Source: Acidobacteriota bacterium (GTDB taxonomy: Bacteria; Acidobacteriota; Terriglobia; Bryobacterales; Bryobacteraceae). From it: 41,893 nt of DNA. Every line of letters starts with the position of its first letter. Positions within the stretch are counted from its first letter, which is position 1. The DNA is taken from the NCBI GenBank assembly GCA_021813825.1, contig JAKAJI010000006.1:1-41893 (forward strand), read 5' to 3'. Below are positions 1 through 29,976 of the stretch, one piece after another. The notes beneath the pieces are model-generated. The model worked only from the letters and a program-made list of their open reading frames with translations. It had not been told where the DNA came from and searched no databases. A program made the position numbers and the translations under genes.

Positions 1-1327
1 CTAGCCCGTCGTGCCCCAACATGACGTTGTTCTTCAGCGTGTCGGTGAATAGATGCGGCGTCTGCGGAGTGTAGGCGGACCGGCAAGGTTTGAAAAAACT
101 CGCTGGATCCTCGACTAACCGCCCGTTCCATCGGATCTCGCCGGCCTGGGCCGGCAGCAACCCTTGAAGTACACGCAGTACCGTGGTCTTGCCCGAGCCG
201 ATCCGCCCTGCGATTGCCAGTGATTGCCCCCGCACGAGCGAAAAGCCAATATCCGAAATTCCCGCTTGTGACCCCGGATAACGGTAGGTCAACCCGCGCA
301 CCTGTAAAGACTCGATCGGATCCTCTGCGCGTTGTGGCGGATTTGCCGGTGATGCCACCCGCGTTACGTCATATTCCGGAACTTCGAACCTGCCCTGGAT
401 GCGCGCATCCCCTACCAGTTGCTGCAACCGCACCATGGCGACGCGGGCACGCCGATGCTGGCCCAGCGTGTCGATTCCGGCCGAAAGCACCGAGGCAACA
501 CTGGGCGCCAGCCTTAGTAGCATGGCGAAATCGCCCAGGCTGAGCAGTCCCGCATGGAGCCTGTAGCCCGCGCCGATCATTGCGACGGCAATACCCAATT
601 GCCCCACAATCCCGCCCCCGGATTGGACCAACTGTCCGAGCAGCACGTCCGAAACCGCTTTGTGGCGGCGCTCGAGCCCCAGCTTGCGAAAGTGCTCCGT
701 CAACGGTCCTTCCCGCATTCCGGCCTTGACCGGTTCGATCGCCACCACGCTATGCAAGATGAACTCGTTCACCATTGCCGCTGCCTCGCGCATTTCAGTG
801 CGGGTCCTGCGAATGCGGTCGGAAAGGCGGCGCAGCAAAATCGCATTGAGCACGCTGGGGCCGCAAACCGCCAGAGCAATCAGCGGGTCCGTCCACACTA
901 GCACTGAAATGCCGCCAGTCGCATAGATCAACCTCGAGCCGATATCAAGGCACGACTTGACATACTCACTCAGGTCTTTTACGTCATCGCGGAACCTGGA
1001 GAGTGCCTCGGCCTGAGAGCCAGGCAAAACACGCGAACCCTGAGCCAGCAGCAGATGGCTCAGGATGTTGCTTCGCAGCGCGGCCTGCAGCGAGAAAATA
1101 TGCCGTGCGAGTACCCGGAATCGCGCTCCGAAAGCAACTTGCCTGGCCGCGCTCAGTAACGCAAGAAGTCCCAGGTAGAACCAGGCCGCCCCTGCGGAGC
1201 GGGACGCCAAAGCATCGAATATGAACTTCAACAGCACCGCGCTTCCAAGTGGGAGCAGCGTCACAACGGCCCAGAGTATGATGCTGAGCCACAGATCCGG
1301 CTTTCTCCATTCGAAGAGCTTGAACAT
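1..1327 (-). CDS. ABC exporter half-transporter (permease-ATPase), 3' end outside window
   Basis: The frame is open from an ATG at 1325-1327 to the left edge, so about 442 N-terminal residues are visible and the C-terminus is missing. The start follows an AGGAG ribosome site and lies 11 bp after the stop of the next exporter gene, which supports co-translation. The first 300 residues hold hydrophobic stretches typical of a six-helix exporter domain (for example LWLSIILWAVV and WFYLGLLALLS). The nucleotide-binding domain then begins, with a Walker A GRIGSGKT near residue 374 and a Q-loop in YTPQTPHLF near residue 422. The signature and Walker B motifs would lie off the window. With the neighbouring 622-residue half-transporter it probably forms a heterodimeric exporter. 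The MbtH-like gene upstream suggests the cargo is a nonribosomal peptide or intermediate; that is inference. Confidence 0.88.
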   Translation of the reverse strand, partial: MFKLFEWRKPDLWLSIILWAVVTLLPLGSAVLLKFIFDALASRSAGAAWFYLGLLALLSAARQVAFGARFRVLARHIFSLQAALRSNILSHLLLAQGSRVLPGSQAEALSRFRDDVKDLSEYVKSCLDIGSRLIYATGGISVLVWTDPLIALAVCGPSVLNAILLRRLSDRIRRTRTEMREAAAMVNEFILHSVVAIEPVKAGMREGPLTEHFRKLGLERRHKAVSDVLLGQLVQSGGGIVGQLGIAVAMIGAGYRLHAGLLSLGDFAMLLRLAPSVASVLSAGIDTLGQHRRARVAMVRLQQLVGDARIQGRFEVPEYDVTRVASPANPPQRAEDPIESLQVRGLTYRYPGSQAGISDIGFSLVRGQSLAIAGRIGSGKTTVLRVLQGLLPAQAGEIRWNGRLVEDPASFFKPCRSAYTPQTPHLFTDTLKNNVMLGHDGL

Positions 1328-1338
1328 CCGTCTGGCTC

Positions 1339-3207
1339 CTATGCGGGCTGTCCTGGGCTCGGCGTCTGCGTGGCGTCCTCACTTTCAGCGAAAGCCATCA
1401 TTAGCGCCGAACGATACCTCGGGTCCGAACTCTCGACGATGGCATCGCGCCTGCCAAATGCCACGGTTGCGCCACAATCAAGGACAAGCAACTTGTCGAC
1501 GCGCCGGATGGTTTCGGGCCGGTGCGCGATAACGATCGCGGTGCGACCGCGCAGGACCCTCTCCATTGCCGCGGCGACCAGACGTTCTGTCGCCCCGTCA
1601 AGCCGGCTGGACGGTTCATCGAGGATCACCAGGCCCGGATCGTTCACGAGACCGCGAATGTAGGTGATCAACTGTTCTTCGCCTGCGGAAACTCCGCAAC
1701 CTCCGGATCCCAGCTTCGTGTCGAGCCCCAACGAGTATCTCCTGACGAAAGACCGCAATCCCGCGGAATCGATCGCTTCTTCTATCCGCGAGTCACTAAT
1801 TGATCTGTCAAAGAGGGTGATATTGTCTCTCAGTGTGCCGGGAAGTACATGCACACTCTGTGTCACAAGCGAGACCTCCCGGCGGAAAGATACAGTCGCA
1901 ACGCTGCCAAGCTCGTATGCGTCTATCGAAATCCGGCCTGCGGTGGGGTCGAGCAGACGCGCCAGCAGCCTCACGAGTGTGGATTTGCCGCTGCCCGTCC
2001 GGCCCACGATGCCCAGAGTTTCCCCCGGCTCGAGACGAAAACTGATTCCCTTCAACACTTCCGTCTGGCCATAGGCAAAGCGAACATCCTGGAATTCCAC
2101 CGCATGCGGGCCTCTACTAAGGACAGCCGGACCGCCATCGCGAACCTCGGGCGCGATCTCGAGCAACTCACTGATGCGTTGCGCGCCGACCTTGGCCCGC
2201 TGCAACAACTGGAACTGTTCACTGATCTGCTCCAACGGCCATTCCAGCATGGTCATGTAGCTGTAAAACAGGTATACGGTGCCGATCGTAATAGCGCCAC
2301 CCAGATACAGGCCGATACCGAGACCCAGAGCCGCCACCAGCCCTGCACTCGAAATCGAACTGCTGATCAACCAGAGCGTGCTGCGCCTCCACCACGCTTG
2401 TACGGATTTCAGATACCAGTCGCGTTGTAGAGTGTAGAAGCCGCGCATCACGTGCTCACCGGCGCCGTTGGCGCGAAGATCATCCATCGCCGTGAGCCGT
2501 TCCTCTATGTATCCGAATAGCTGCCCGCTTGATTCACGCTCCGCACGCGCCACCTCGGTGGCCGTATCGCGCCGTGAATACAGGATCGCGGCCGCCACCA
2601 GCGCCACCGCGGTCAGGACCATTCCGGCCTTCGTGTTCTCGCGCCATAGCAGGATGAGCACACTGACCCCGGAAAGCAAAGCGGTCGCAGCGCGCACCAG
2701 GAATTGCGCAAACAGGTCGGACAAGCTGGATGCATCGCCATCAATGCGCTCCACCATCTCGCCGGGCATTCGCTCCCTATGGTATGCAATGTCCAGCTTC
2801 AGGACGTGCTGAAAGACGTCGGAGCGCAATTCATTCGTGACTCGCCACCCGATCTTCGCGGCCAGCCATGACGCCGTACCCGCCATGACGTGCATAAAGC
2901 ACGTCGCGGTCGCATACATGACAGCAATCTGAACCAATTCGAGAATAGGAGCTTTGGCGGCCGCGAGATCGATAAAGCGCCGGACCGCCTGAGGACGGTA
3001 AATCTGCAGCCCGACTGATCCCAGTACGAGCCCTGAAAGCACAATGAGCGACCCCGTGTGCGCGACTAGATACCTGTAGAGGTGCCCTACCTTCACAGGG
3101 AACCTGCCACTATGGCGCAAGACGGTTGTGCCAGATCTTTCCAGGCGTTCGACCTGCCGCGTCTGGGTGGACAGCCACAGATTGCCCCTCGGCTCAGCCG
3201 TCACCAC
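1339..3207 (-). CDS. ABC exporter half-transporter (fused permease and ATPase), 622 aa
   Basis: A full-length exporter half. An N-terminal transmembrane domain (roughly residues 40-320) is followed by an ATP-binding domain with Walker A GRTGSGKST, Walker B LVILDEPS and an H-loop in IVIAHRP. The signature motif is degenerate, reading VSAGE where LSGGQ is usual, which in heterodimeric exporters often marks the half that forms a weak ATP site. The start is GTG; an AAGGG ribosome site lies a few bases upstream. The gene lies 72 bp downstream of the MbtH-like gene and 11 bp upstream of a second exporter half, all leftward, so the three are probably one operon. The family is certain; the substrate is unknown. 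A role in exporting a nonribosomal peptide is inferred only from context. Confidence 0.92.
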   Translation of the reverse strand: MVTAEPRGNLWLSTQTRQVERLERSGTTVLRHSGRFPVKVGHLYRYLVAHTGSLIVLSGLVLGSVGLQIYRPQAVRRFIDLAAAKAPILELVQIAVMYATATCFMHVMAGTASWLAAKIGWRVTNELRSDVFQHVLKLDIAYHRERMPGEMVERIDGDASSLSDLFAQFLVRAATALLSGVSVLILLWRENTKAGMVLTAVALVAAAILYSRRDTATEVARAERESSGQLFGYIEERLTAMDDLRANGAGEHVMRGFYTLQRDWYLKSVQAWWRRSTLWLISSSISSAGLVAALGLGIGLYLGGAITIGTVYLFYSYMTMLEWPLEQISEQFQLLQRAKVGAQRISELLEIAPEVRDGGPAVLSRGPHAVEFQDVRFAYGQTEVLKGISFRLEPGETLGIVGRTGSGKSTLVRLLARLLDPTAGRISIDAYELGSVATVSFRREVSLVTQSVHVLPGTLRDNITLFDRSISDSRIEEAIDSAGLRSFVRRYSLGLDTKLGSGGCGVSAGEEQLITYIRGLVNDPGLVILDEPSSRLDGATERLVAAAMERVLRGRTAIVIAHRPETIRRVDKLLVLDCGATVAFGRRDAIVESSDPRYRSALMMAFAESEDATQTPSPGQPA

Positions 3208-3279
3208 CCAAGTGCCCTTGCCGGAAATGACAACTGCTGCGTGAGTCCGGCCGCAACCCGGGCGACATCCGGTGGCGTC

Positions 3280-3507
3280 CTAAGCGTTAGCGCCGCGCTC
3301 CCGCTCCATGTGCTCCGCAAGGCTCTTAGGCCTCATATCCGTCCAAGTCGCTTCGATCCAATCGAGACAAACCTTCCGGTTGCCTCTGGGACCTACTGCT
3401 TGCCAGCCCGCGGGGATGTCGCGAAAACTCGGCCACAGCGAATACTGCAGTTCATCGTTGACAAGAACGAGAAAATCGCCATTTTCGTCATCGAATGGAT
3501 TTGTCAT
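3280..3507 (-). CDS. MbtH-like protein (NRPS adenylation-domain partner), 75 aa
   Basis: The protein matches the MbtH signature almost throughout: NPFDDE near the N-terminus, LVLVNDE, SLWPSF, PAGW, a single Cys in VCLDWIE, and WTDMRPKSL near the C-terminus. Its 75 residues are the normal family length. MbtH-like proteins bind the adenylation domains of nonribosomal peptide synthetases and are needed for their folding or activity; they are almost always encoded in NRPS or siderophore clusters. A GGAGG ribosome site lies 4 bases before the ATG and a sigma70-like promoter lies just upstream. No NRPS is visible in the window, so the synthetase is expected to the left, downstream of the two exporter genes, unless this copy acts in trans. 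Confidence 0.96.
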   Translation of the reverse strand: MTNPFDDENGDFLVLVNDELQYSLWPSFRDIPAGWQAVGPRGNRKVCLDWIEATWTDMRPKSLAEHMERERGANA

Positions 3508-3533
3508 GGTCCTCCAGCAATGCCAGTTCGCTC

Positions 3534-3562
3534 AGTCTAACACGAGCCCATTCGCAACGCAA
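3534..3562 (-). promoter_or_regulatory. sigma70-like promoter of the mbtH-exporter operon
   Basis: On the minus strand TTGCGT (3557-3562) is followed after exactly 17 bases by TAGACT (3534-3539), about 27 bases before the MbtH-like start codon. The surrounding 3540-3700 stretch is more AT-rich than the genes on either side. Prediction by eye from consensus and spacing. Confidence 0.4.
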
Positions 3563-3702
3563 ATACTTTCCACGCAGTTTCTTTTATCTGTTCTGGCATT
3601 AATTCCCGCCCCCAATTCCCGAAAACTCCGCCTCTGGTCGCGCCCTTTAATTCCGTAACGGTGACTTTATTGACCGTGAACCTAACGAGGCACCGATAAG
3701 CG

Positions 3703-5958
3703 CTAACATGAACCAAGCTCCACGATCGCTTGTTCCCAATCGGAGCGCAGACGCCGCAGGAGCTTCATCAGCGATTGGTGCGTGCGCCGCAACGGCTCCC
3801 CGCTACTTGTCACAAAATCGATTGCGCACCTAACCTTTTGCCCCATGCCCGACACTGCCCGCCTGCTGAACGCGTTGAACGTCATCACGTGCGAGGGCAC
3901 CCCGCAACACGTGAGAAACAACGCCGGCCCAACGGACGTGGCTACGAACCGCGTGATGCCGGCGCTGAGCACGGCCCGGCGCGCTTCCGTCAGTGCTTCG
4001 CTCATCGCTGGTGAGGCGAGATCCAGTGCCGCGAACCGCGGAAATACTTCGGGGAGGCCAACATGCCTGAGCACCGACCAGCTATCCTGGCACTCCCGCC
4101 GATCCCTGCGGCTGTTCACCACCACGGCCGTCGCTCTCGGTCCGGCGTTACGGGCGGTGCATGCTACGGTTCGGATCGATTGCAGTACTTCACGCATTCT
4201 CGATGGGTGATTCACCTCGCCGTCCTCTAGCAGGTGAGGCGGCAGCGCGAGGTCGAATCCGTACACCTCTCCGCAGCCACTCGGCGCGGCAGAATCGCTG
4301 TCGGCCGCAATTTTCAGGAAGGAATGAAGGCCGTCGTGCCCAGTCCAGACCGCCTGTTGTTGCTGTAGCTGTGCCGCCGTCTCAGGATCGCTGCAGCCGA
4401 TCATTTCCGGAGAGGTCGCGCGCACGTGGTCGCGGAACATGTTCATCTCGCAGTCTGCAACCTGCTGTCCCGATAACCGGTAAGCTTCAGCGCCGAGGGC
4501 TGCCCTTAGTCTGTCCGCCAGGCCCAACCACTGTGCGAGCGCAACGCTTTCATCTGGGGGCCCGCCCGACGAATGCAGTATGCTGACCCTGCGCACTCGC
4601 TCGACGGGCCGTACCTGCATCTGGTCCAACACCTTGCCCGGCAGTTCGCGTTCGCAAAATACAAGGTGTGGCACAGGTATGTGACTCGAGGGCGTGCCGA
4701 GTGACAATAGGTGGGATGCTTCATATGCCGGCAGCAGCGCCGAATCGGCCGCCGCTTCGGCATAGACCGCGCGCAGGCTGTGAAACGCAGCGACCCGGCC
4801 AAAGCTCCTATCGGCAGAATACGCCCCGAGCACCGCAATTTTGGGGTCCCGGGAATCGAGAAGACTCGCCGAGTGCTCGTTCGCATAAAGCCACAAATGA
4901 TCTGCTCCCATCTTCACCGTCCGTCGTGCGACTGAGCGATCCCCCCGGTGACGCGCACGCCGGAAGTAATGTCGCATCTCGGCTTCTGATGCTGTGGCAT
5001 TGCTCTTGACGCTATGCGTGATACTGTGTCCTCGCGCCATCAGTTCGGGCGGAGCGAAGGGCAACGCGCTCCAGTCCACGCCGAACGGCTGTCCCGGCTT
5101 GGAGAAATCGGCGATGGTCAATCCTACAGCGTAGGCGTACATCCCCAGGATCACATCCTCGCCGATCGGAATATCTGCCCAATGGATGGCACGCTCGAAA
5201 CATCCGAGCGCCGCCATGAGATCCATCATGCGGCGTGTGACCACGTATCCGCCGCCCTGGCAATAGTGAAGCCTCGAATACCCGTTCCGACGAGCGGCTC
5301 CGACGTCGGCAATCAAGGCTTCCATGGCCGCAGCGCGCGATTCGGTCACCGCAAATGGGTCCGGTCTCCCGGGAGACCTCGGGCACAGCTTCCTGCCCTC
5401 CCTGCACGTTGTCTTCAGGAGTTGCAGGACCGGGGAAGGAAAAGCGCGTTCCCAACCGGGCAGCTCCTTTTGGCGGTCGCAGGTACGGCCCACACACCCG
5501 GCCAGGCCGATGCCGGTATCCGAGACGATGTCATCCAAACATGACAGAGAGCCAATAATCAGAGAGTCCGTATCGAGCTTCAGCGCATAGCGGCAATTCG
5601 TGTGCGCCCACAGCCAGTCGAGTCCAGCCAGAATACCGGTCGCCAGCCCTCCGAGATGCCCGACCCCCACACCCCGCCGTGGATTCTGAAGCACCAGGAC
5701 CTCCGTATCACGTCCTCCAAACGGGTTCCCAATAAAACGTGCCGTCGGGGCATCCTCGATAACGACAAACCACCTCGGAACAGGCCCGTAATGGACGAGA
5801 CTTTCAAACAGATCCCGCAGACGCTCGGGTTCCTCATCACCGGGACCGAAGGGGACCACGACCGCAAATCCGGATGCCGCCCGATCGTGACAACTTGCCG
5901 GCTCTCTGATCTCACCCACGTCGCCACTCGTCCACGGCGGGCCTTCGCGCGAAGTCAT
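3703..5958 (-). CDS. glycosyltransferase-like protein with unassigned C-terminal half, 751 aa
   Basis: The N-terminal half (about residues 30-330) resembles a GT-A nucleotide-sugar transferase. It starts with a FAVVVPFGPG strand, has a DTD triad at residues 129-131 within YALKLDTDSL (a likely metal-binding DxD), a QGGGYVV segment near 234-240, and a GED at 267-269 where family 2 enzymes place a catalytic acid. Residues of about 340-751 match nothing I recognise: they are soluble, rich in Ala, Arg and Ser, and carry several Cys residues. No signal peptide or membrane segment is apparent. The gene reads leftward toward the MbtH/exporter operon but has its own promoter and 195 bp of spacing. It could glycosylate the product of that locus, but no sequence evidence ties them. 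Confidence is fair for the GT fold and low for any specific function. Confidence 0.62.
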   Translation of the reverse strand: MTSREGPPWTSGDVGEIREPASCHDRAASGFAVVVPFGPGDEEPERLRDLFESLVHYGPVPRWFVVIEDAPTARFIGNPFGGRDTEVLVLQNPRRGVGVGHLGGLATGILAGLDWLWAHTNCRYALKLDTDSLIIGSLSCLDDIVSDTGIGLAGCVGRTCDRQKELPGWERAFPSPVLQLLKTTCREGRKLCPRSPGRPDPFAVTESRAAAMEALIADVGAARRNGYSRLHYCQGGGYVVTRRMMDLMAALGCFERAIHWADIPIGEDVILGMYAYAVGLTIADFSKPGQPFGVDWSALPFAPPELMARGHSITHSVKSNATASEAEMRHYFRRARHRGDRSVARRTVKMGADHLWLYANEHSASLLDSRDPKIAVLGAYSADRSFGRVAAFHSLRAVYAEAAADSALLPAYEASHLLSLGTPSSHIPVPHLVFCERELPGKVLDQMQVRPVERVRRVSILHSSGGPPDESVALAQWLGLADRLRAALGAEAYRLSGQQVADCEMNMFRDHVRATSPEMIGCSDPETAAQLQQQQAVWTGHDGLHSFLKIAADSDSAAPSGCGEVYGFDLALPPHLLEDGEVNHPSRMREVLQSIRTVACTARNAGPRATAVVVNSRRDRRECQDSWSVLRHVGLPEVFPRFAALDLASPAMSEALTEARRAVLSAGITRFVATSVGPALFLTCCGVPSHVMTFNAFSRRAVSGMGQKVRCAIDFVTSSGEPLRRTHQSLMKLLRRLRSDWEQAIVELGSC

Positions 5959-6017
5959 AACCCTGAAATGTGTCGTTGTTCAAGTGGAGCCCCGGTCCTG
6001 CCCAAGTGCCCGGCGAT

Positions 6018-6046
6018 ATCCTAACCGGAAGCATTCAATAATTCAA
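6018..6046 (-). promoter_or_regulatory. sigma70-like promoter of the glycosyltransferase-like gene
   Basis: On the minus strand TTGAAT (6041-6046) is followed after 17 bases by TAGGAT (6018-6023), 60 bases upstream of the ATG at 5958. The region is AT-rich compared with the gene. It is a consensus-and-spacing prediction. Confidence 0.42.
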
Positions 6047-6089
6047 CCGATTATAAATGGCAGCTAGAACCTTGTCAACGCTCCGAATT

Positions 6090-6149
6090 GGGTCATCTAA
6101 AATGTCACTGAAGGGCCCCTCGTTGGGTCAAATGAAAAAGTAACCGAAC
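6090..6149 (+). repeat. left compound end of the DDE IS (two GGGTCA units)
   Basis: Two related units lie 35 bp apart. Unit 1 starts GGGTCA at 6090 and reads on to a GTCAC-TGAA motif; unit 2 starts GGGTCA at 6125 and reads on to GTAACCGAA. Unit 2 with its flank (6120-6149) is the clear inverted repeat of 7916-7945. Tandem transposase-binding units at each end are typical of IS21-like elements, so these are probably binding sites. Confidence 0.7.
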
Positions 6150-6198
6150 ACGTGAGGCAGCCAGGTCCTGAACGGGAGCGAATCAGGGCGCCGGCAGG

Positions 6199-7428
6199 AT
6201 GGACATGCACTCACGCGAGCAGTACCTGGCCGCGGTGCGAGAAGAGTACTTGCGCGGCGGCAAGAAGCAGAAGACACGGTTATTGAATGAAGCGCGGAAG
6301 CGCACCAGGCTGAACCGCAAGGTGCTGATCCGTAAGCTGACCCGAGTTCCGGCAGCGGGCGGCAAGCCCAAGCGGCGGCGGGCACGGGGAACGAGGTACG
6401 GCGTGGAGTTGAGAGCGCCGCTGATCCGGGTTTGGGAGCTGTTTGATTTTCCGTGCGGTCAGCGGCTGGCGCCGATCCTGCGGGAGCAGACGGAGCGGTT
6501 ACGGGCCAGCGGCGGGCTGAAGTGCAGCCATGCGGTGGCGGAGCTTTTGCAGGAGATCTCGCCGAAAACGATCGACCGGTTGCTGCAGCGCGAGCGGGAG
6601 GCGCGGTGCTTGAAGCAGCATCGCCGCCCGCCCGTGCATCCGTTACTGTATCAACGGGTGCCGGTGAAAACATCGGCGGATTGGGACCGGCAGGAAGTGG
6701 GGAACCTGCAACTGGACTATGTGCTGCATTGCGGAAGAAGCACGGCGGGGGAGTATCTGCACACGTTGTCGGCCACGGACATCGCCACCGGGTGGTGGGA
6801 GGGCGGGGTGCAACTGGGGCGATCTCAGAAGGCGACACAGGAGAGCATCGAGGGAATTCGACAGCGGTTGCCTTTCCGGATACGGGAAGTGCATCCAGAC
6901 AACGATTCGGGAATCCTCAACGATCTGCTCTGGAATTACTGCCGGCGGCATCGCATCCGGATGAGCCGGTCCAGACCCTATCAGAAGAACGACAACGCCT
7001 GGGTGGAGCAGAAGAACTGGACGCACGTGCGGAAGGTCGTGGGCTACGGTCGTTTCACGACTGCGGCGCAATGCGAGGTGTTGCGGGCGCTGTATGAGGC
7101 CGCGGCGGATTTCCGGAACTTCCTGCAACCGGCGATGAAGCTGAAAGAGAAAGTGCGGGAGGGCGGCAAGGTGCGCCGGGTATATGAAGAGCCACGCACG
7201 CCGTATCAGCGATTGCTGGAGTCGGGGACGCTGAAGCCGCAGCAGCGGCGGGCATTGGAGAAGCGATACCAGTCGCTGGACCCGGTGAAGCTGCGCCGCC
7301 GGATCGAACAATTAGGGACGGAACTATTCGATCTGCTGAAGGGGGAAAGCGATGCCGCAGTTCCCAAAGTCCGGCGGCATGGTCCGAGCATCGATCTGCG
7401 GCGCAGGAAGGCCGCGTGCGCCATATGA
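6199..7428 (+). CDS. DDE integrase-core transposase, 409 aa
   Basis: The N-terminus has a helical DNA-binding region (residues 1-50, EQYLAAVREEYLRGGKKQK). It is followed by a retroviral-integrase-type catalytic core. Candidate catalytic residues are the Asp in NLQLDYV, the Asp in VHPDND, and the Glu in DNAWVEQKN, a good DDE spacing. The C-terminal third is basic and proline-containing, as in transposases of the IS481/IS21 integrase superfamily. The ATG at 6199 follows a GCAGG ribosome site; another ATG two codons later is also possible. The frame is intact, so the element may be active. I cannot assign the IS family with certainty from memory. Confidence 0.88.
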   Translation: MDMHSREQYLAAVREEYLRGGKKQKTRLLNEARKRTRLNRKVLIRKLTRVPAAGGKPKRRRARGTRYGVELRAPLIRVWELFDFPCGQRLAPILREQTERLRASGGLKCSHAVAELLQEISPKTIDRLLQREREARCLKQHRRPPVHPLLYQRVPVKTSADWDRQEVGNLQLDYVLHCGRSTAGEYLHTLSATDIATGWWEGGVQLGRSQKATQESIEGIRQRLPFRIREVHPDNDSGILNDLLWNYCRRHRIRMSRSRPYQKNDNAWVEQKNWTHVRKVVGYGRFTTAAQCEVLRALYEAAADFRNFLQPAMKLKEKVREGGKVRRVYEEPRTPYQRLLESGTLKPQQRRALEKRYQSLDPVKLRRRIEQLGTELFDLLKGESDAAVPKVRRHGPSIDLRRRKAACAI

Positions 7429-7447
7429 GCCCAAACCCCATCAGGAA

Positions 7448-7470
7448 AGCCGGGCAAAAGCGGCCCGGCT
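7448..7470 (+). terminator. GC-rich hairpin just after the transposase stop
   Basis: AGCCGGGC (7448-7455) and GCCCGGCT (7463-7470) form a perfect 8-bp stem with a 7-base loop, 20 bp after the transposase stop codon. No T-run follows, so an intrinsic terminator is uncertain; it may instead be an RNA 3'-end stabiliser. Confidence 0.35.
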
Positions 7471-7550
7471 GTCTTCGCGTTTCCTATGCCCAGGGCCTCC
7501 GCGCCGAAGCTTCACCAAAGAAATGGGGCTTTCCAAGTAAAAATGCAAGA

Positions 7551-7585
7551 AAGCCCTTCGGCGCCGGGAGGTCACCGAAGGGCTT
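7551..7585. repeat. perfect 11-bp inverted repeat inside the IS
   Basis: AAGCCCTTCGG (7551-7561) is exactly complementary to CCGAAGGGCTT (7575-7585), with a 13-base loop. It lies in the non-coding segment between the transposase gene and the right end of the IS. Confidence 0.7.
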
Positions 7586-7705
7586 CAGCCGATTTCTTCG
7601 GAGCCAGCTCCGTCGCATCGGCCTTGGGCATCCGTTCCGGGCGCGACCCCGAAACGGACAAGCGTGGAGTACGGGTTCAGACGCCGCACTCGAACCAGAA
7701 TTGCA

Positions 7706-7740
7706 ACCGAGGCCTCCGCTCCGGATGCGGCGGCCTCGGT
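7706..7740. repeat. 14-bp hairpin inside the IS
   Basis: ACCGAGGCC (7706-7714) pairs with GGCCTCGGT (7732-7740). The stem continues after one mismatch through CCGC/GCGG to a 7-base loop at 7720-7726. It is the strongest of three successive hairpins in the IS tail. The rest of 7471-7915 holds open frames without recognisable protein character, and I see no gene there. Confidence 0.65.
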
Positions 7741-7915
7741 CTCCACAAGCCTGCCAACGAGGAGCCTCCCCAGGGAGGAACTTGGTATCCCCCGGCGGCT
7801 TGTCGATCGCCGCTGCGGAACGAACTCCGCTGCCCGCGATCCTGGATATCCCCGCTTGGGGCGCGACCCCTCGCAGATCGGTTTCAGACTACGACAAGGA
7901 GGAAAAGCCTGGCGC

Positions 7916-7976
7916 GTTTGGTTACTTTCTTACGTGACCCAACGATCCCCATTTCGGTTACCTCGTTAAATGACTT
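7916..7976 (-). repeat. right compound end of the DDE IS
   Basis: Read on the minus strand, this carries GTCAT...GTAACCGA (outer unit, tip near 7976) and then TCGTTGGGTCA...GTAACC (inner unit, 7916-7945). It mirrors the left end in order and spacing. Confidence 0.7.
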
Positions 7977-7986
7977 GACGGGCGCT

Positions 7987-8051
7987 CAGAATTGTCCTCA
8001 GAATTGTCCTTGTCAGAATTGTCCTTTGCTCAGAATTGCTCAGAATTGTCT
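7987..8051. repeat. five degenerate copies of CAGAATTGTCCT
   Basis: Copies lie at 7987-7998, 7999-8010, 8014-8025 (all identical 12-mers), 8031-8040 and 8041-8051 (shorter or changed). They sit exactly between the right end of the DDE IS and the truncated end of istB. IS21-family ends carry multiple short transposase-binding repeats, so these may be the surviving end of the IS21 element, brought next to istB by a deletion. Confidence 0.75.
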
Positions 8052-8470
8052 CGTCGAACAGGTCCTGGGCCTTGATGAACTGGCATCGGTAGCGGTTCTC
8101 CAGCGCTTTCAGCAGCAGGCCGCAGGCTAATCCAGTCCTGCCTACGCCCGTGTTGCCGGTGATTACGATGTTCTCCGCCATGGCGATGAACTCCAACTCC
8201 GCAAGTCCGCGGATCTGTTTGCGGTTCACGCCCGGCTGGCGGGCGAAAGGGAACGTCACCAGCGTCCATCGCTCCGGCAAGTTGGCGCGTCCGATGCGCC
8301 ACTCGAGAGCGCCCTCCCTGCTTGGCCTGCCACTGGACGCGCACCAGACGCGTCAGAAACTCCGAGTAGCTGATGTCGCCCTTTTCGGCGGCGCGCAGTT
8401 GTTCATCGCTGATCTCCAGGATGCGTCGCAGTTTAAGATTCTTCAGCAGTTGTTCCAGTTCTTCAGTCAT
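8052..8470 (-). pseudogene. istB: istB remnant (IS21 helper ATPase), frameshifted and truncated
   Basis: The first 50 residues (from MTEELEQLL at 8470, with KLRRILEISDE and LVRVQWQAKQ) are IstB. The frame then shifts at about 8316, where one extra G in a GGGAGGG run breaks the reading. The continuation in the other frame (NLPERW-type segment, then ENIVITGNTGVGRTGLA and RCQFIKAQDLFDE) is IstB again. The protein stops at FDE where the homologue would continue for roughly 100 more residues, replaced by the CAGAATTGTCCT repeats. The Walker A Lys is also Arg (GVGRTG). With a frameshift, a C-terminal loss and a changed P-loop, it is a dead gene. Its start overlaps the istA stop by 8 bp, the usual istA-istB arrangement. 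Confidence 0.88.
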
Positions 8471-9299
8471 CTTCCTCAGTTCCGTCCTTCAGCCGGAAGT
8501 ACTCGCTGATCACGCGCCTCAAGATCATTCGCCCCAGCCGGTCCAGATCGTAGAGTCCGTAGCGCGCGGCCTCACCCACCGCGCCCAGCAACGGTTCGCG
8601 CGGATACTCGGGCACGAAGCGCAGCAGTTGCCGCAGGGCAAGCGTAATCACCTTGCGGCTCCGTTGCTTCAACGCCGCCACGTAGTCCGCCAACTCCGGC
8701 GCGCCGGTGAGGATGGCGTTCTCCTCCGGATGCGGATCAGGCCGCGACGCGCGCCGGCCTCGCGGCGGCCGATGTTCCGCCAGCGTGATGCGCTGACTCT
8801 CGGCTTCGGCAATGCGCCGATGCGTTACCAGCCGGCGGGCATCCAGTTGAATCTCGATCTTGCCCTTGGTCTCGCGCACTGCCATGCGTCGCCCGATCCA
8901 CTCCACCGGCACGGAGTAGCGGTTGCTGTGCAGCGCGACATAGCCCTCGATGTCCGCCATCCTCTGATAGAGCAGGTAGACTTCCGGAATCCACGCCGGC
9001 AGCGGTTTCAGATGCAGGCACTCCACCGCGGATAACTCGCGCGGCACGGCGCGGATATGTTTCTTGTAAGTCGAGTTGACCTTGTCGCACCACTCCCGGG
9101 CCCGCTGGTTCAGATCCTCCCAAACGGAGAAGACGCGTCCGGCGAGAAAGTTGCCCTCGATAAAGCTGAAGCGGCGTTCCACTAGGCCCGAACGGTTCGC
9201 ATTGCCGATCGCGTGCGCCACGAACTCGAAGCCGAACCGCTCGCCGAACGCCGCCATTTCCGGCACCGGAACCTTCTCGCGTCCGCTGCCACGCAGCAC
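8463..9299 (-). pseudogene. istA: istA C-terminal part (IS21 transposase), cut off by an IS630
   Basis: The visible 280 residues form the second half of IstA: PVPEMAAFGERFGF, then the GLVERRF segment carrying the likely catalytic Glu, NFLAGR, the RAVPREL segment, and a C-terminal domain ending in KDGTEEDD. The open frame starts at the insertion point of the IS630 element. Removing the insertion with one TA copy restores a continuous frame reading HVI-VLRGSG across the join to the fragment at 10460-10690. The local ATG at 9314 lies inside the IS630 end and is not a natural start. Confidence 0.9.
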
Positions 9300-9301
9300 T
9301 A

Positions 9302-9329
9302 TACAGACGCGCATAATTAAAGGGACATA
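9302..9329 (+). repeat. IS630 left inverted repeat
   Basis: A 28-bp terminal repeat that starts TACAGACGCGC and ends AGGGACATA. It differs from the right copy at only two positions. Confidence 0.88.
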
Positions 9330-9367
9330 AGCGTCGGGGGTGTGTCATACTGGCGGTACGGACCGCC

Positions 9368-10425
9368 ATGTTGCCACGCCTGCTGCATCTGCATCCAGCA
9401 ATTTGCCGCCGCTTAACTCGTCTGAGCAAAGAGGCGGAACGCGATGGTGCTTATCGTGTTGCCAAGCGATTGCAAGCCGTAGTTCTCAACGCCGAGGGCC
9501 GCACCAGCGGTGAATTGGCCGCAGTCCTCAAAGCGCCGCGTTCCAAGATCTCCGAATGGTTAGCCCGCTACCAGGTCCAGGGAGTCGAGGGCTTGCTGGA
9601 AGGATACCGATCCGGAAGACCCCCGGGGCTAAATCGAGAACAGCGCCAACAACTGGCGGACCTTCTGGACAGTGGACCGGTGGCCTACGGACTGGATAAT
9701 GGCGTATGGACCTCGCCCATGATCGCGTGGGTGATTGAAGAGGAGTTCGGAGTCACCTACCATCCCGGGCATGTGCGCAAGCTGCTTCACAGGCTGGGCT
9801 TCTCCATGCAACGACCACGCCGGGTGCTGGCGCGGGCCAACGTTGCCGAGCAGGACCGGTAGCACCGGCGCGTCTATCCGCAGATTAAGAAAAAGCCCAC
9901 TCGCAAAACTGGGCCTTAATCTTTACCGACGAAGCCAGTTTCCGCCAGGACTCGACGCTGCATGCCACCTGGAGCCGAGTGGGCCATCCGCCGGAAGTCC
10001 CCGTGACCGGAGAACGCAAGAACGTCAAAATCCTGGGCGCCATCGAACTTTGGCGTACCCGTTTCCACTATCGCGAAGACCATGCCTTCAACGCTGACAC
10101 CTACTTGGCCTTCCTGGAGCAGTTGGCGCGTTCGTATCGCTGGCAAGGAGCCATTCTGATTCAGGACAACGCTTCGTATCACAAGGACTCGGAAGTCTGG
10201 ACGTGGTTCCGCTGCAACCGGCACTGGTTGGAGGTGCACCAACTACCGCCCTACTCCCCTGAATTGAATCCGACGGAGCGGCTGTGGCAACACACGCGCA
10301 GGACGGGAACTCACAATCGATACTTTGCGAGTCGGGCGGAACTGGAAACGACTCTGAGTCGCGTCTTCGGCGAGATGCCGCACCATCCCGCGCTCATCCG
10401 CTCCTATCTGCTTCCTTTTTGCTGA
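9368..10425 (+). pseudogene. IS630 transposase, split by a stop and a frame change
   Basis: Part one (9368-9862, 164 aa) is the N-terminal helix-turn-helix region: RLQAVVLNAEG, a second HTH near VLKAPRSKISEWL, and RKLLHRLGFS. It ends at a TAG at 9860. Part two, in the -1 frame from 9889 on, is the DDE domain: LIFTDEASF, then ILIQDNASYHKD, then LPPYSPELNPTERLW (D, D, E). The -1 frame opens only after the TAG, beyond a TAA at 9886-9888, so a single ribosomal slip cannot join the two as the sequence stands. A change of that TAG to CAG would restore an overlap containing the slip-prone AAGAAAAAG at 9887-9895. I therefore call it a nonsense-mutated copy of a probably frameshift-regulated transposase. 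Confidence 0.82.
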
Positions 10426-10429
10426 CTAC

Positions 10430-10457
10430 TATGTCCCTGTAATTATGCGCGCCTGTA
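10430..10457 (-). repeat. IS630 right inverted repeat
   Basis: A 28-bp terminal repeat that starts 4 bp after the transposase stop codon. On the minus strand it reads TACAGGCGCGC onward and matches the left copy at 26 of 28 positions. Confidence 0.88.
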
Positions 10458-10459
10458 TA

Positions 10460-10690
10460 TCACATGCGTGTTATCGATCATCACGCGCCTTGCAGCGCCC
10501 CCCGTGTAGCGCAACGCGTCGGTGAGAAACACCTTGCAGTCGAACCGCTGGAACGTCGGGTAGCACTGGAAGAACAACATCCGCGAGTAGCACAGCACGG
10601 CTGAAGCGGTCTGCACCTTGCGCTTCTTACCCGCCAGTTCTACTTCGTGCGGAGAAGTGTCGTGCTAAAGCTCCTCGCCTAATCATCAGG
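10460..10690 (-). pseudogene. istA: istA middle fragment (IS21 transposase)
   Basis: In one minus-strand frame this encodes HDTSPHEVEL, a KRKVQTASAVLCYSRM segment, TFQRFDCKVF and RRVMIDNTHVI, the middle of IstA leading into the piece at 8463-9299. A TAG replaces the Gln expected just before HDTSPH. Upstream the similarity ends at in-frame stops near 10690, so the N-terminal DNA-binding part is gone. Confidence 0.82.
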
Positions 10691-10709
10691 ACTCCGTAAT
10701 GGTAAGGGA

Positions 10710-10776
10710 AGCCACCTGTCCACGTCTTCCATAGGCGAAGGGGCGGCGTGATTCTTCCATTATTTGGAAGGTGGCT
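10710..10776. repeat. short inverted repeats flanking the IS1634 left end
   Basis: AGCCACCT (10710-10717) is complementary to AGGTGGCT (10769-10776). Inside the right arm, CTTCCA and TGGAAG around 10754-10770 form a second small hairpin. The roughly 90 bp between the istA remnant and the IS1634 contain nothing else I recognise. It may be the relic of another IS end. Confidence 0.4.
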
Positions 10777-10782
10777 CCTAGG

Positions 10783-12749
10783 CCGAAGTTCTTGGGGCTG
10801 AGCACAGGAAGGCCAGGCGAAGCAACAGGTTAGAGAGATTCAGGGATGGGTTTACTGCCTACAGGGCAGGGCTCAGTTGGCCCGCAGAGTGACGCCGAGT
10901 AAATCCAGGGCGCGCTGCTGAAGCGTGGTGGGCTGGGTGAGCATATCGAAGGCGGCGATGTTTTCGTCGTTGGGTTGAATTCTGTTTCTGGCGATCATCG
11001 CCAAGTCACCGAGCAGAGTTTGAAAGCTGTGCACCTTGCTCCCGTCGGCGGTGTGTTTGGTAAGGGCCTTGCGCCTGGCAGCGGCGGAGCGTTGCGCGGG
11101 AGCGACGATGGAAGCGCGGGCGGCCTGGGCCTGCGGCTTGTCATCGTCATCGAAAAGAATCGGCGCCAGGAGTTGGCGCATATGCCATTCCACGTAATAA
11201 GCCAACATACAAAGAAGGATGTGGGCGCGGACGCGATCGGGCAGGCGGTGATGGATAGGGCGCACCTGCAGATCGACGGTCTTCAGGCTACGGAAGGCCC
11301 GCTCCGCGCCGGCCAGGCTTTTGTAACTGGCTACGACCTGTTGACCGGATAGTGCTTCTTTGTTGACGCTGGTCCGAATGACATAGATTCCGTCCAGGTT
11401 TTCCTGGCGTGCAATGTTGGCCGTTTTTCGTTCGTAGGCAAAACTGTCCTCTTTGATGCGTAACTGAAAATGTTTGCCCATCTTGTAACGGTTGAGAATT
11501 CTGCCGGCGCGCAAGCCGATGTTCTGTTTGCCGCGCAAGGGGCGCTTGCGACGCTTCGTTGCCACGGCGATCTTCTCCAGTTGCTTCCCGGTGGCCGCCA
11601 GCAGGCCGGGTCTCTGGCGCGCACGCTCCTCGGCCAACAGAGGGTTGAAACAGGCGATCAGACGTTCGCCTGGGAAGTCCGGATGAGCGATCTCGACCAG
11701 ATCCGTTTTGTCGAACAGAGACATCTGCAGTTGGCCGCTGGCAGCCAGTCTCTGGATCTGGCTGGCGCGCAGAGCGGAGATCCATTGGATGCCCTGGGAG
11801 GCCGGCAGATCTTCGCGAATGCGGGCGCTGGTGATCATGCCGCGGTCGCCGATGAGCACCACCCCGGAGAGACCGAATCGCTGGCGCAGTTTGCCGGCCT
11901 GGATGGCGACAGTTTTAGGATCGGAGGTATTGTCGGCAAATACTTCGACCGCGACCGGGCATCCGGCGGCATTGGTGAGCAGGCCGAAAACGATCTGCAA
12001 CTTGCCGGACTTGTCATCGCGCGAGTGACCGAGTTTGCCCAGAGGACAGTGGCGCCCTTCAAAGTAAGTGGAAGTCAAGTCATAGAGCACTAAGCCGCCC
12101 TGAGAGAGTTGGCGTTTGGCGAGTGCCTGCTCGATGCGTGCCTGTTGTGGGAGCAGCCAGTCCATGGCCCGGTAGAGTTCGGCTTCCTCGGCGGAATCCA
12201 GATGGAGTAAGTCGCCGAGACTGTGGTGGAGGGTATCGCTATGAAGGCCGCGAGCGGTGGCGAGTTTGGAGGCCGGCTCGATGATGCGCGCCACGATCAT
12301 GGCGATGACGAGGTTGCGCTGCCGGCCGGGGGAAGGATCGAGGATGGAATCCAGTTGCAGGTTGTGCAGGCAACCGAGGACTGCGGCGGCATGGCCGTGC
12401 GGCCGGGAGCGGGCGATGCGGAAACAATCCGGCAGAGGGGCGGAGGGGGCAGCCAGAGAACCGGCGAGGGCGAGGCGGAGGGCTTCAATCTGACGAGCGC
12501 CGAGATGAGTGATGTTGGCGAGGGTGCGGGTTTTGACTTTGCCGTGCTGGCGATAGGATTCGCGGAGGAGGATGGCGGGCGGGGAGTTGCGGTTGGGGAT
12601 GGTGGCCACGTACATGCTTACATCATACACGCAATACATATATTAATAAACATAAAGTCGCAACTCATACATGCCTACGCCATCGCTCGAAAAACCTTCT
12701 AACGTCATCAAAACAAATTCATTCCCCTCAGCGGCGGTCAGAACTTCGG
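10783..12749 (-). mobile_element. IS1634-family insertion sequence, about 1.97 kb
   Basis: The element carries one intact leftward transposase gene. CCGAAGTTCT at 10783-10792 is the exact inverse of AGAACTTCGG at 12740-12749, and weaker similarity (CTGAG) continues inward on both sides. The implied length suits IS1634 elements. No clean target duplication was seen: flanks read CTAGG on the left and ATTAG on the right. The right end sits one base before the stop codon of the LysR gene. Confidence 0.75.
10873..12615 (-). CDS. IS1634-type (IS4 superfamily) DDE transposase, about 580 aa
   Basis: A long intact transposase. The N-terminus (MYVATIPNRNSPPAILLRES) and the RIARSRPHGHAAAVL region are typical of the IS1634 group. 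Catalytic candidates are the Asp in LVLYDLTSTYF, the Asp in VVLIGDRGM, and the Glu in the SLAGAERAFRSLK segment, as in the IS4 YREK region. I chose the ATG at 12615 because it directly precedes the conserved N-terminus; an in-frame ATG eight codons upstream (12639) is possible. No frameshift or internal stop is seen, so this copy may be active. Confidence 0.93.
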   Translation of the reverse strand: MYVATIPNRNSPPAILLRESYRQHGKVKTRTLANITHLGARQIEALRLALAGSLAAPSAPLPDCFRIARSRPHGHAAAVLGCLHNLQLDSILDPSPGRQRNLVIAMIVARIIEPASKLATARGLHSDTLHHSLGDLLHLDSAEEAELYRAMDWLLPQQARIEQALAKRQLSQGGLVLYDLTSTYFEGRHCPLGKLGHSRDDKSGKLQIVFGLLTNAAGCPVAVEVFADNTSDPKTVAIQAGKLRQRFGLSGVVLIGDRGMITSARIREDLPASQGIQWISALRASQIQRLAASGQLQMSLFDKTDLVEIAHPDFPGERLIACFNPLLAEERARQRPGLLAATGKQLEKIAVATKRRKRPLRGKQNIGLRAGRILNRYKMGKHFQLRIKEDSFAYERKTANIARQENLDGIYVIRTSVNKEALSGQQVVASYKSLAGAERAFRSLKTVDLQVRPIHHRLPDRVRAHILLCMLAYYVEWHMRQLLAPILFDDDDKPQAQAARASIVAPAQRSAAARRKALTKHTADGSKVHSFQTLLGDLAMIARNRIQPNDENIAAFDMLTQPTTLQQRALDLLGVTLRAN

Positions 12750-12750
12750 A

Positions 12751-13770
12751 TTAGAGGTCCGTGATCGTGGCAGCATCAGGTGGAATCAGGTCGCTTGCTA
12801 GCGAAATGAAGTCGTCAACTAGTCGAGGTCGATGGCCTCCGGCGTACAGGAGACCGGTCTCGACGACAAGGGATGCCTCCGTGAACGCACGCAACAAGAC
12901 ACCCTTTGGTCGTAAGTGCAATTCCGATGCCTTCAGGATCGCTACGCCGAATCCCTCGCGTGCCAAGGCGAGAGCTACTGTAGCCGAATGAGCGTGATGA
13001 GTCACCGAAGGAGGATAGCCAACTCCGCGAAGCAGAGCGCAGATACTTCCCCACACCCCCGAATCTGGAGACCCGAGCGCCTGGATGGCGGGCTCCCCGC
13101 TGAGATGCGACGGGGAGATGGCTCGGCGGCGCGCCAACCGATGCGTCACTGGCAACCCGACAACCAATGGCTCTCGCCATATGCACCGACTCTCGATGTG
13201 CTCGGCACTGGGCAACAGACCGATGGCAACATGGCTCGTCCCATCCGACAAGCACTCTGAGAGCCTTTCGCCGGCGACACTCTGAAAACGAACCGGTGTT
13301 CGAAAGCCGGCCTCCACAACAAGCTTCCGGATGCGAGCGAGTATTCGGACGTCGACTTGCGGCGCATACGCCACTTCGATCCGCTCAGGTTCACCACGCG
13401 CGATCGATCGAGTGAGGGACTCGCCAGTTCTGGCAGCCAGCAGGACTCGTTCGGCAAACGGTATCAGCACACGCCCGGCCTCCGTCAACTCGGCGCCCCG
13501 CGGAGTCCGGACGAACAGCCTGGTGCCGAGTCTGGATTCGAGTTTATGAATATGCCGCGAAACTGCAGATTGGTCGAGGTGGAGCCGTTGCGCTGCGCGC
13601 GTGAAATGTGACTGCTCCGCCACGGCCACCGCACATAGATACTGGATCATGTCACCCAGCGGAACCGTGCCACACGATGAAGTTTCGTCGTCTGCGCCCG
13701 CTTCCATGCCTGCCTGTCGCTCGTTATTGCCCCGGAAATTCCCAGACCTTCCGATTTCTTCAAGCTCCAT
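12751..13770 (-). CDS. LysR-type transcriptional regulator with N-terminal extension, about 339 aa
   Basis: From residue 41 (MIQYLCAVAVAEQ) it is a standard LysR protein: an HTH in SHFTRAAQRLHLDQSAVSRH, then LESRLGTRLFVRT, then a two-lobed effector-binding domain. The HTH is normally at the very N-terminus, so the 40 preceding residues (Glu/Gly/Ser-rich) are unusual. They are supported by an AGAGGAG ribosome site just before the ATG at 13770. The ATG at 13650 would give a conventional protein of about 299 residues. The TAA stop at 12751-12753 lies one base from the IS1634 end, so the last codons may have been altered by the insertion. The target genes are unknown; the nearest divergent gene is the excisionase-like one. 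Confidence 0.9.
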   Translation of the reverse strand: MELEEIGRSGNFRGNNERQAGMEAGADDETSSCGTVPLGDMIQYLCAVAVAEQSHFTRAAQRLHLDQSAVSRHIHKLESRLGTRLFVRTPRGAELTEAGRVLIPFAERVLLAARTGESLTRSIARGEPERIEVAYAPQVDVRILARIRKLVVEAGFRTPVRFQSVAGERLSECLSDGTSHVAIGLLPSAEHIESRCIWREPLVVGLPVTHRLARRRAISPSHLSGEPAIQALGSPDSGVWGSICALLRGVGYPPSVTHHAHSATVALALAREGFGVAILKASELHLRPKGVLLRAFTEASLVVETGLLYAGGHRPRLVDDFISLASDLIPPDAATITDL

Positions 13771-13928
13771 TCGTACTCCTCTACTTGTAGGAGTCATCTC
13801 CCGTTAAATTTCTAACCTCTCCGGGGGATGAGATACGCGTCGCACTCTCACACGCCGTCGATCCGCCGCGAACATCCCGGGCTTTCCACATAACATTGGA
13901 CTCGGCGCATTCGGTCGTCGTATTCTCA

Positions 13929-14243
13929 ATGGCGAAGAGACTCCAGGAGACTACGGGAAGCGCCGTGGACACTAGCTTCAGCGACAGGCTTGAAGAAATC
14001 GTCGATCGCGTCGCGGCCTTGATTGCAGCGCGACTCGAGGCGAGAATCGCATCGCCTGGCGGGAAAGGCAAGGTCACTCCGCGACTGCTCACAGTGAAAG
14101 AGGCTGCGGCGTATGTCGGCCGCACGGAGCAGGCCGTCCAGCACCTAATTCACCGGAAGGAACTCGTGGTTGTCCGCCGTGGCCGCCGCGTGCATCTGGA
14201 TCGCGCCGACCTAGACCGCTGGATCGACGGGAATAAGTGCTGA
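13929..14243 (+). CDS. excisionase-like helix-turn-helix protein, about 104 aa
   Basis: The C-terminal 55 residues form a MerR/excisionase-type winged HTH: LLTVKEAAAYVGRTEQAVQHLIHRKEL, then VVVRRGRRVHLDRADLDRWID. The N-terminal half is a helical linker (SDRLEEIVDRVAALIAARLEARI) that could oligomerise. I chose the ATG at 13929 (MAKRLQ); a start 11 codons upstream is also open. The gene ends inside the 3' end of the integrase gene, converging with a 33-bp overlap. That pairing suggests recombination directionality or integrase control, which is inferred. Confidence 0.78.
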   Translation: MAKRLQETTGSAVDTSFSDRLEEIVDRVAALIAARLEARIASPGGKGKVTPRLLTVKEAAAYVGRTEQAVQHLIHRKELVVVRRGRRVHLDRADLDRWIDGNKC

Positions 14244-15302
14244 ATCCTGCCTGCGATCATCCTCAGATGACGCCGCATGCCGACGGACCATTTCCTTCGC
14301 GGACTTGATGTCGTCGATATCCACGATGTTGTAGCGCCGTTCCATCGAATCCGTCCTGTGTCCGGATATGCGCATTCGCACCACTTGAGGCACGCCGGCT
14401 CGCCGAAGGTTCCGAACCGCCGTCCGGCGCAGGTCGTGGAACTTCAACTCCGGCACGCCGGCCGTCCTGCAGGCAGTTTTCCAGGCGCCGCGAAATTCCT
14501 TTATCGGAACCCCATCCCGATGAAATACGCGCTGGCAGCCGTCGGCATTATCTCTCGACCAGGCAAGCCATGACTTCATGTCCCCGTCGAAGATCGGCAC
14601 TGCCCGCGTGTGCCCCGTCTTGGTTTCTCCCGCGCGCAACGTGATGAACTCCTGCCGCCAGTCGACTTGGTCCCACTCAATCGCTAGCAACTCTCCCAAA
14701 CGGATGCCCGTGAAATACGCCGTCACGAATAGCGGCTTGAGGTAGTCGGGGAGCGCGTCACGCAGCCGGAAATACTGGTCGTCGGTCAAGAACCCCTGCC
14801 GAGCATTCGTCTCGGCGACCATCGGAAAGAAGGGCATGTTGAGAACCTTGGGCGGCGTACATTTGCGCCCCAGGTTGAGAGCGATCCGGAGCAGGGACAA
14901 CTCACGATTGCAGGTTGCCTCCGATCGGCCCTCTGCTGTCCGCTTCCGGCGGTAGTCCTTCAGCTTTTCGGTGGTGAGCGCCGCAGGCTTGAGGTGGCCG
15001 AAAAACGGCCGAAGGTTCGACTCGATCACGAGGCGCCAAATCTTGGCCGTGGAGCCCTTCGCGTTCGCCTCCGCGTGTTCGAGCAGATCATCGAGGAGTT
15101 GGCCGCAGGTAGTACGCTCAACGGCGACGTTGCCGACCTCGCCTCGCACCTTGCGCCCGAGAATCTCATCTCGTAACCGGCGGGCATCCCGGACGTCCGA
15201 GGAATGCGATGACTTCTGGTACTGTTTCCCGTCGACCCAATACGAGACGTACCAAATGTTGCCCCGCTTGCGAAGGGTTCCGACTCCGTAGTGGCGTCCC
15301 AT
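14211..15302 (-). CDS. tyrosine site-specific integrase, 363 aa
   Basis: A phage/island-type tyrosine recombinase. It has an N-terminal arm-binding region (WYVSYWVDGKQYQKSS), a core-binding domain (about residues 60-160), and a catalytic domain with the full residue set: Arg201 in TGIRLGE, Lys228, the HDLRR box at 289-293, His315 in SGHRTDS, and Tyr324 in RRYNIVD. Its start lies 100 bp from the 3' end of tRNA-Leu(GAG), the usual position for integrases that target tRNA 3' ends. It reads away from the tRNA into the accessory region. All key residues are present, so it is probably functional. Confidence 0.95.
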   Translation of the reverse strand: MGRHYGVGTLRKRGNIWYVSYWVDGKQYQKSSHSSDVRDARRLRDEILGRKVRGEVGNVAVERTTCGQLLDDLLEHAEANAKGSTAKIWRLVIESNLRPFFGHLKPAALTTEKLKDYRRKRTAEGRSEATCNRELSLLRIALNLGRKCTPPKVLNMPFFPMVAETNARQGFLTDDQYFRLRDALPDYLKPLFVTAYFTGIRLGELLAIEWDQVDWRQEFITLRAGETKTGHTRAVPIFDGDMKSWLAWSRDNADGCQRVFHRDGVPIKEFRGAWKTACRTAGVPELKFHDLRRTAVRNLRRAGVPQVVRMRISGHRTDSMERRYNIVDIDDIKSAKEMVRRHAASSEDDRRQDSALIPVDPAV

Positions 15303-15318
15303 GCCCGGAGCTTACCAC

Positions 15319-15341
15319 AAAACCGTACCAAAAACCGTACC
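15319..15341. repeat. two tandem AAAACCGTACC repeats between int and tRNA-Leu
   Basis: Identical 11-mers at 15319-15329 and 15331-15341, one helical turn apart (12-bp period). An AATGGCC direct repeat also occurs near 15351 and 15375. The placement fits integrase arm-type or accessory sites at the attachment region; that role is inferred. Confidence 0.6.
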
Positions 15342-15401
15342 AGTGAAACAAATGGCCATCCGTCTCAAATTGGCGAATGGCCGTAAGTTATTGATTATAC
15401 T

Positions 15402-15488
15402 TGGTGCGGAGAGGGGGACTTGAACCCCCACGGGATTGCTCCCGCTAGCACCTCAAGCTAGTGCGTCTGCCAATTCCGCCACCTCCGC
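15402..15488 (-). tRNA. tRNA-Leu (anticodon GAG), CCA encoded
   Basis: Read leftward, the 87-nt gene has acceptor GCGGAGG pairing with TCTCCGC, an anticodon stem CTAGC/GCTAG around loop TTGAGGT (anticodon GAG), the long variable arm of class II tRNAs (CGGGA/TCCCG), the T-loop TTCAAGT, and an encoded CCA at 15402-15404. It lies 17 bp downstream of secG and may be co-transcribed with it. Its 3' end faces the integrase and is the likely attachment site. Confidence 0.97.
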
Positions 15489-28009: not shown

Positions 28010-28018
28010 CGTCTTCCT

Positions 28019-29902: not shown

Positions 29903-29976
29903 ACCCTCACTAGCCCAGTTCCCTTCTTCCGATCTTGCTCGCCCGGCGTAGACCTCCCACCGGCCGCACACCAATC

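Follow-up and report, generated by a model that had tools for sequence, protein, structure and literature searches.

An MbtH-exporter operon and a neighbouring nonribosomal peptide synthetase end in a tRNA-Leu(GAG) island found near-identical in two Bryobacterales metagenome-assembled genomes

The window analysed here is a stretch of 41,893 nucleotides, the complete contig JAKAJI010000006.1 (C50) of a metagenome-assembled genome (MAG) of a soil bacterium in the Acidobacteriota, order Bryobacterales (G000, assembly GCA_021813825.1; 5.1 Mb in 563 contigs, 94.6% complete), and a short operon near its left end encodes an MbtH-like protein. We consider it very likely that positions 1-15458 are the end of a mobile island that is integrated at tRNA-Leu(GAG) and carries a nonribosomal peptide synthetase (NRPS) as cargo, that the operon encodes MbtH, a heterodimeric ATP-binding cassette (ABC) exporter and a glycosyltransferase-like (GT-like) tailoring protein, and that the synthetase lies just to the left, convergent with the operon. 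The evidence from beyond position 1 comes from a sibling MAG of the Bryobacterales (G001, 8% contaminated), in which contig DAIDIH010000345.1 (C345, 19,293 bp, here called L036) carries the same island end. Two further species of the same genus (G002 and G003) served for comparison.

The MbtH operon and the synthetase end beside it

The MbtH, ABC exporter and GT-like genes are all present. The four genes have open frames and share the minus strand in the order GT-like gene, mbtH, exporter half 1 and exporter half 2, separated by 195, 72 and 11 nt. A full match to a sigma-70 promoter precedes the GT-like start codon by about 90 nt; it is 42 bp from, and outside, the insertion sequence that starts at 6120. 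The features are as follows, in window positions unless L036 is named.

2..1327, minus strand: 5' part of ABC exporter half 2 (ABC_membrane and ABC_tran), cut by the contig end
1339..3207, minus strand: ABC exporter half 1, 622 aa (ABC_membrane and ABC_tran), complete
3280..3507, minus strand: MbtH-like protein, 75 aa (Pfam MbtH), with a GGAGG ribosome-binding site
3703..5958, minus strand: GT-like protein, 751 aa, with an N-terminal GT-A-like part bearing DTD and ED motifs
6050..6078, minus strand: sigma-70 promoter match TTGACA-17-TATAAT, 12/12 (converted from L036 9464-9492)
L036 18205-19293, opposite to the MbtH operon (convergent): NRPS fragment, 363 aa, with the end of an adenylation (A) domain, a peptidyl carrier protein (PCP) and a thioesterase (TE), from domain matches

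The initial annotation had recognized an MbtH-like protein, and the gene product is a full member of that family. We took as members proteins of about 70 aa that exceed the cut-off of PF03621 and carry the conserved Trp and the N.E.Q.S.WP...WTD.RP motif. The window protein scores 94 bits against a cut-off of 27, contains the extended signature N.E.Q.S.WP(5)P.GW...L(6)WTD.RP and aligns almost end to end with MbtH of M. tuberculosis (2KHR; E 1e-26). Its length and full signature are common to the known MbtH-like proteins, namely 2KHR, YbdZ of enterobactin and PA2412. Its gene differs from the known systems in being grouped with an exporter and a GT-like gene and convergent to the NRPS, rather than adjoining the NRPS in one operon. 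In a survey of 61 genomes MbtH occurred in five, and the four apart from the window's own MAG also had condensation domains. The copy at 3280-3507 is the only MbtH in G000.

The initial annotation placed a synthetase to the left of position 1, within about 30 kb, and this was borne out in the sibling contig. L036 is 99.99% identical to window positions 3-15458, the only differences being two adjacent bases (5514-5515), and it reaches 3.75 kb further left than position 1. Past the window it contains, in order, the end of exporter half 2, a gene with a ZZ finger and a trypsin-like domain, a lipoprotein-like gene and the 3' end of an NRPS gene; the stop codon of the latter lies 2.66 kb beyond position 1. 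The A-domain C-terminus reads NGKLDRKAL, the PCP scores 53 bits with GGHSLL, and the thioesterase scores 102 bits with GYSWG; all three domains are thus physically linked to the operon in L036. The contig stops inside this terminal module, and condensation domains are located on other contigs of G001. The contrary situation, in which no NRPS is adjacent and synthetases elsewhere have their own MbtH, was not what we saw: G001 has one MbtH, this one, and four condensation matches.

The end of the A domain, the PCP and the type I thioesterase stand in the same order as in termination modules of the EntF kind. EntF is also the best NCBIfam similarity of the fragment, at 160 bits against a cut-off of 2400; with only 363 aa the fragment is far under that cut-off, and unlike for EntF no siderophore starter genes were seen. 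The gene between the exporter and the NRPS (L036 15967-16986, minus strand) encodes a bacterial protein that has a ZZ-type zinc finger and matches a trypsin-like domain weakly.

The exporter and the glycosyltransferase-like protein

Half 2 of the exporter is cut in the window and is completed in frame in L036 (14164-15936). Half 1 keeps the catalytic Glu (ILDEPS) and has a degenerate signature (VSAGEE), while the complete L036 copy of half 2 has a canonical LSGGQ, an Asp instead of the catalytic Glu at Walker B (FDDVS) and no H-switch. The two genes, each with a transmembrane and a nucleotide-binding domain, therefore have complementary non-canonical motifs, and from these motifs they are assigned to one heterodimeric type IV ABC exporter. 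The two ABC exporter halves that had been noted do stand in the same gene run, but counting them as two exporters was an overcount, because they are complementary parts of one machine. Heterodimeric exporters with one degenerate ATP site include BmrCD, TM287/288 and TAP, and the likeness extends to the arrangement in which one half has Glu with an altered signature and its partner Asp with canonical LSGGQ. Unlike these named heterodimers, the window exporter stays under every curated family cut-off, and its scores are generic and MsbA-like.

The GT-like protein has no family match in Pfam or NCBIfam, and at family level a GT2-like assignment was not reached, the closest being one relative that matches Glycos_transf_2 weakly (E 0.22). 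Clear resemblance is limited to residues about 24-343, which resemble stand-alone proteins of 300 aa in genomes G051, G041 and G135. The DTD (129-131) and ED (267-268) are conserved across three sequences, as expected of DxD and ED motifs. The C-terminal 400 aa have no convincing relative, the only candidate being 70 residues in G180 that match doubtfully at 34%. Among 84,980 genomes a near-identical copy of the protein was found at one locus, that of the sibling, and plasmids gave 0 matches. We did not rely on a profile built from three sequences, which gave a weak galactosyltransferase match (E 0.04), and a PDB search with the full protein returned beta-lactamase matches at chance level only. 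AlphaFold2 run from the single sequence gave a mean predicted confidence (pLDDT) of 35. The front half of this rare two-part protein is best read as a GT-A glycosyltransferase, and the protein, whose rear half is without a convincing relative, is a modest enzyme lead.

If these genes act together, MbtH would bind the adenylation domains of the NRPS and keep them soluble and active, and the NRPS would assemble a peptide on its carrier domains, from which the terminal thioesterase would release it. The ABC heterodimer would then export the peptide, to which the GT-like protein may attach a sugar. That MbtH serves this particular NRPS, that the product is exported and that it is glycosylated are each plausible from the gene content; a glycosylated peptide as the product is a guess.

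The tRNA-Leu(GAG) island and its two copies

The stretch from 1 to 15458 is one end of an island integrated at tRNA-Leu(GAG), a context that the initial annotation had not recognized. The features between the operon and the boundary are these.

6120..7945, plus strand: insertion sequence with 39-nt terminal inverted repeats (79%) and a transposase at 6199-7428 (plus strand)
7966..9314, minus strand: second, remnant-like insertion sequence, with a Mu-transposase C-terminal domain and a short open reading frame that is IstB ATPase-like by eye
10873..12639, minus strand: DDE transposase of a third insertion sequence, as L036 2900-4666
12751..13797, minus strand: LysR-type regulator
14211..15302, minus strand: tyrosine integrase of the island, as L036 231-1328, 100 bp from the tRNA gene
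15402..15488, minus strand: tRNA-Leu(GAG), the integration site, within which the identity between window and L036 ends

A 57-nt core from the 3' part of the tRNA (15402-15458) is common to the window and L036. In L036 positions 1-83 are non-tRNA sequence joined to this core, and the same piece ends another contig of G001 (C14). A tyrosine integrase beside the tRNA gene and a duplicated 3' core were thus both found, the far end of the island not being present in G000. The island has a G+C content of 60.3%, the flank one of 64.1%. In this flank, at window positions 26021-29974 (minus strand), two adjoining outer-membrane efflux (OEP) genes, identical to each other at 75-82% of the DNA in places, stand beside a MacB-like permease gene.

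The two MAGs have chromosomes about 10% apart, being 87-90% identical to the right of the tRNA, against 99.99% in the island. In G000 the island and 26 kb of chromosome are on a single contig, and that chromosome is found in G001 and G002 at 86-91%. The order at the junction is tRNA, core and integrase in the window, and in L036 a different sequence, core and integrase; because the junctions differ, the two copies appear to be different insertions or states of the island. From these comparisons the best reading is that the island probably moved between species recently. In G003 an integrase-like gene adjoins the same tRNA (by eye), and in G002 there is another copy of the core 2 kb off. The tRNA looks like an integration hotspot in the genus, because its occupants differ in three species.

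What moved may be a conjugative element. C14 overlaps the end of L036 by exactly 141 bp at the core junction, and we take the two contigs as adjacent because the record name carries k141 and an overlap of 141 bp is expected of neighbouring contigs. The junction would come from an excised circle or from two tandem elements. C14 encodes the type IV secretion genes VirB4/TrbL/CagX/TrbI and a second integrase, and it is 97% identical over 6.3 kb to a contig of G002 (C255), on which a TrwC relaxase and a TrwB coupling protein follow; these last two are in C255, not in C14. Also encoded on C14 are an IetA-IetS defence pair, a ThsB-like TIR protein and a ThiF protein. We infer that the island is an integrative conjugative element (ICE) with NRPS cargo.

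The yersiniabactin high-pathogenicity island and ICEKp are a familiar case of an NRPS island on a conjugative element integrated at tRNA-Asn. The island described here is alike in its target at a tRNA 3' end, its neighbouring tyrosine integrase, its NRPS cargo and conjugation genes that are probably on the same element. It differs in using tRNA-Leu(GAG), in its host, a Bryobacterales genus, in carrying another NRPS, and in that the linkage of its conjugation genes goes through a contig overlap.

Synthetase content, alternatives and meaning

The NRPS genes of G001 are fragmented, as its contigs end inside A domains. The four condensation matches are on C259, C257 and C372, and extra A domains are on these three and on C407. 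C372 and C257 have one terminal 141-bp segment in common, the only shared end among the NRPS contigs, and comparison of contig ends gave no join between L036 and any of the others; there may therefore be one cluster or several. The binding-pocket codes of the A domains were read via motif anchors and are tentative. The firmest is that of the second A domain of C257, DAWQFGLID, which is the glutamine code of tyrocidine (PMC2866473). The code of C372, DALWFGGTF, is near codes in the Leu/Ile/Val section of PMC12283262, and that of the first A domain of C259, DFTKIGHVG, is near Asp/Asn codes. These NRPS contigs, unlinked to L036, also encode a 2-oxoglutarate (2OG) oxygenase, a carbamoyltransferase, a CmlA-type beta-hydroxylase, a GT4 enzyme and a methyltransferase, and because of the oxygenase, carbamoyltransferase, hydroxylase and GT4 enzyme a decorated product is possible. 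On C407 (3-5959) an A domain, the methyltransferase, the GT4 enzyme and the CmlA-type beta-hydroxylase stand in a row, unlinked to the island.

Several observations weigh against the reading of an island with this MbtH and this synthetase. G000 has 0 condensation domains and no carrier-thioesterase of NRPS type, so the NRPS is missing from its assembly or bin; as the C14 sequence was also absent from G000 on sequence comparison, the linkage is for this genome taken from the sibling contig. The NRPS gene lies outside the MbtH operon and converges with it, and this MbtH may have a different NRPS as its partner. The single 141-bp overlap carries the ICE reading, and the island contig of G001, a bin with 8% contamination, may be mis-binned. 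We considered whether other genes of G000 could supply the synthetase. Its 11 AMP-binding matches had no NRPS layout when the long frames were read and carriers were searched for, some being contig-edge fragments, and its carrier matches were, as far as read, an FkbH-type protein, acyl carriers or acyl-ligase fusions. One carrier match is on C80, where positions 2968-7739 encode a fusion of an FkbH-like haloacid dehalogenase (HAD) domain and a carrier, a GT4-like enzyme and a fusion of GT4-like and type II-like thioesterase parts (by eye beyond the carrier match).

Mis-binning is the alternative that survives best. The near-identity would then result from a contig of one population being placed in the sibling bin and not from transfer between species, which is compatible with the rest of our reading and which we regard as a serious but less probable possibility. 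Besides the contamination, L036 is joined to no checkable chromosomal sequence of G001, and C14, which has no homologues in G000, is itself mobile. On the other side, the island in G000 shares its contig with the 26 kb of chromosome that G001 and G002 carry at 86-91%, G002 and G003 have other occupants at the same tRNA, and the junction of L036 differs from that of the window, so that this is not one locus assembled twice. Mis-binning would remove the claim of transfer but not the linkage of MbtH and NRPS.

We think it unlikely that the operon is an orphan remnant, in which insertion sequences truncated the island, the synthetase is truly absent and MbtH is left without a local partner. The lack of condensation domains in a MAG that is 94.6% complete agrees with such a remnant, as do the transposases of insertion sequences, three or more in number, that lie at 6-13 kb in the window. 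Yet none of the four operon genes has a broken frame, the contig breaks off within exporter half 2 while the sibling copy is intact past that point, and NRPS modules and mobile islands commonly drop out of MAGs from short reads. A polysaccharide or lipid pathway, with the GT-like protein and the exporter handling a glycan or glycolipid and MbtH there by chance, is very improbable: the GT-domain relative in G135 sits among other glycosyltransferase-like genes and the exporter scores are MsbA-like, but MbtH is in the same gene run, the NRPS thioesterase end is 5.9 kb away in L036 and no other polysaccharide genes were recognized on either side.

Returning to the island with NRPS cargo, we suggest, as a tentative extension that we hold at somewhat less than even confidence, that a multimodular NRPS cluster, equipped with an MbtH, an exporter and an unusual two-part GT-like protein of its own, travelled on an ICE at tRNA-Leu(GAG) between two species of one Bryobacterales genus, and so recently that 15.4 kb differ at two bases. 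The product may be a glycosylated and otherwise decorated peptide. Soil Acidobacteria of the lineage Ca. Angelobacter are likewise rich in NRPS genes, and two of their species from different sites have a near-identical NRPS layout (PMC9723581); the lineage differs from ours, and the words horizontal, mobile and tRNA are all absent from the text of that paper.

Loci that combine MbtH, an NRPS and an exporter, and islands integrated at tRNA genes, are kinds already known. The instance is new, and what it adds is a mobile context, probably shared recently, and an unusual GT-like protein. Since it is the synthetase and the mobile backbone that the window's own MAG lacks, an apparently orphan MbtH in such a bin is no sign that an NRPS is absent. 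The origin of many NRPS clusters in soil Acidobacteria is unclear, and an island that is near-identical in two species would offer a concrete route for their spread, with a boundary that can be tested.

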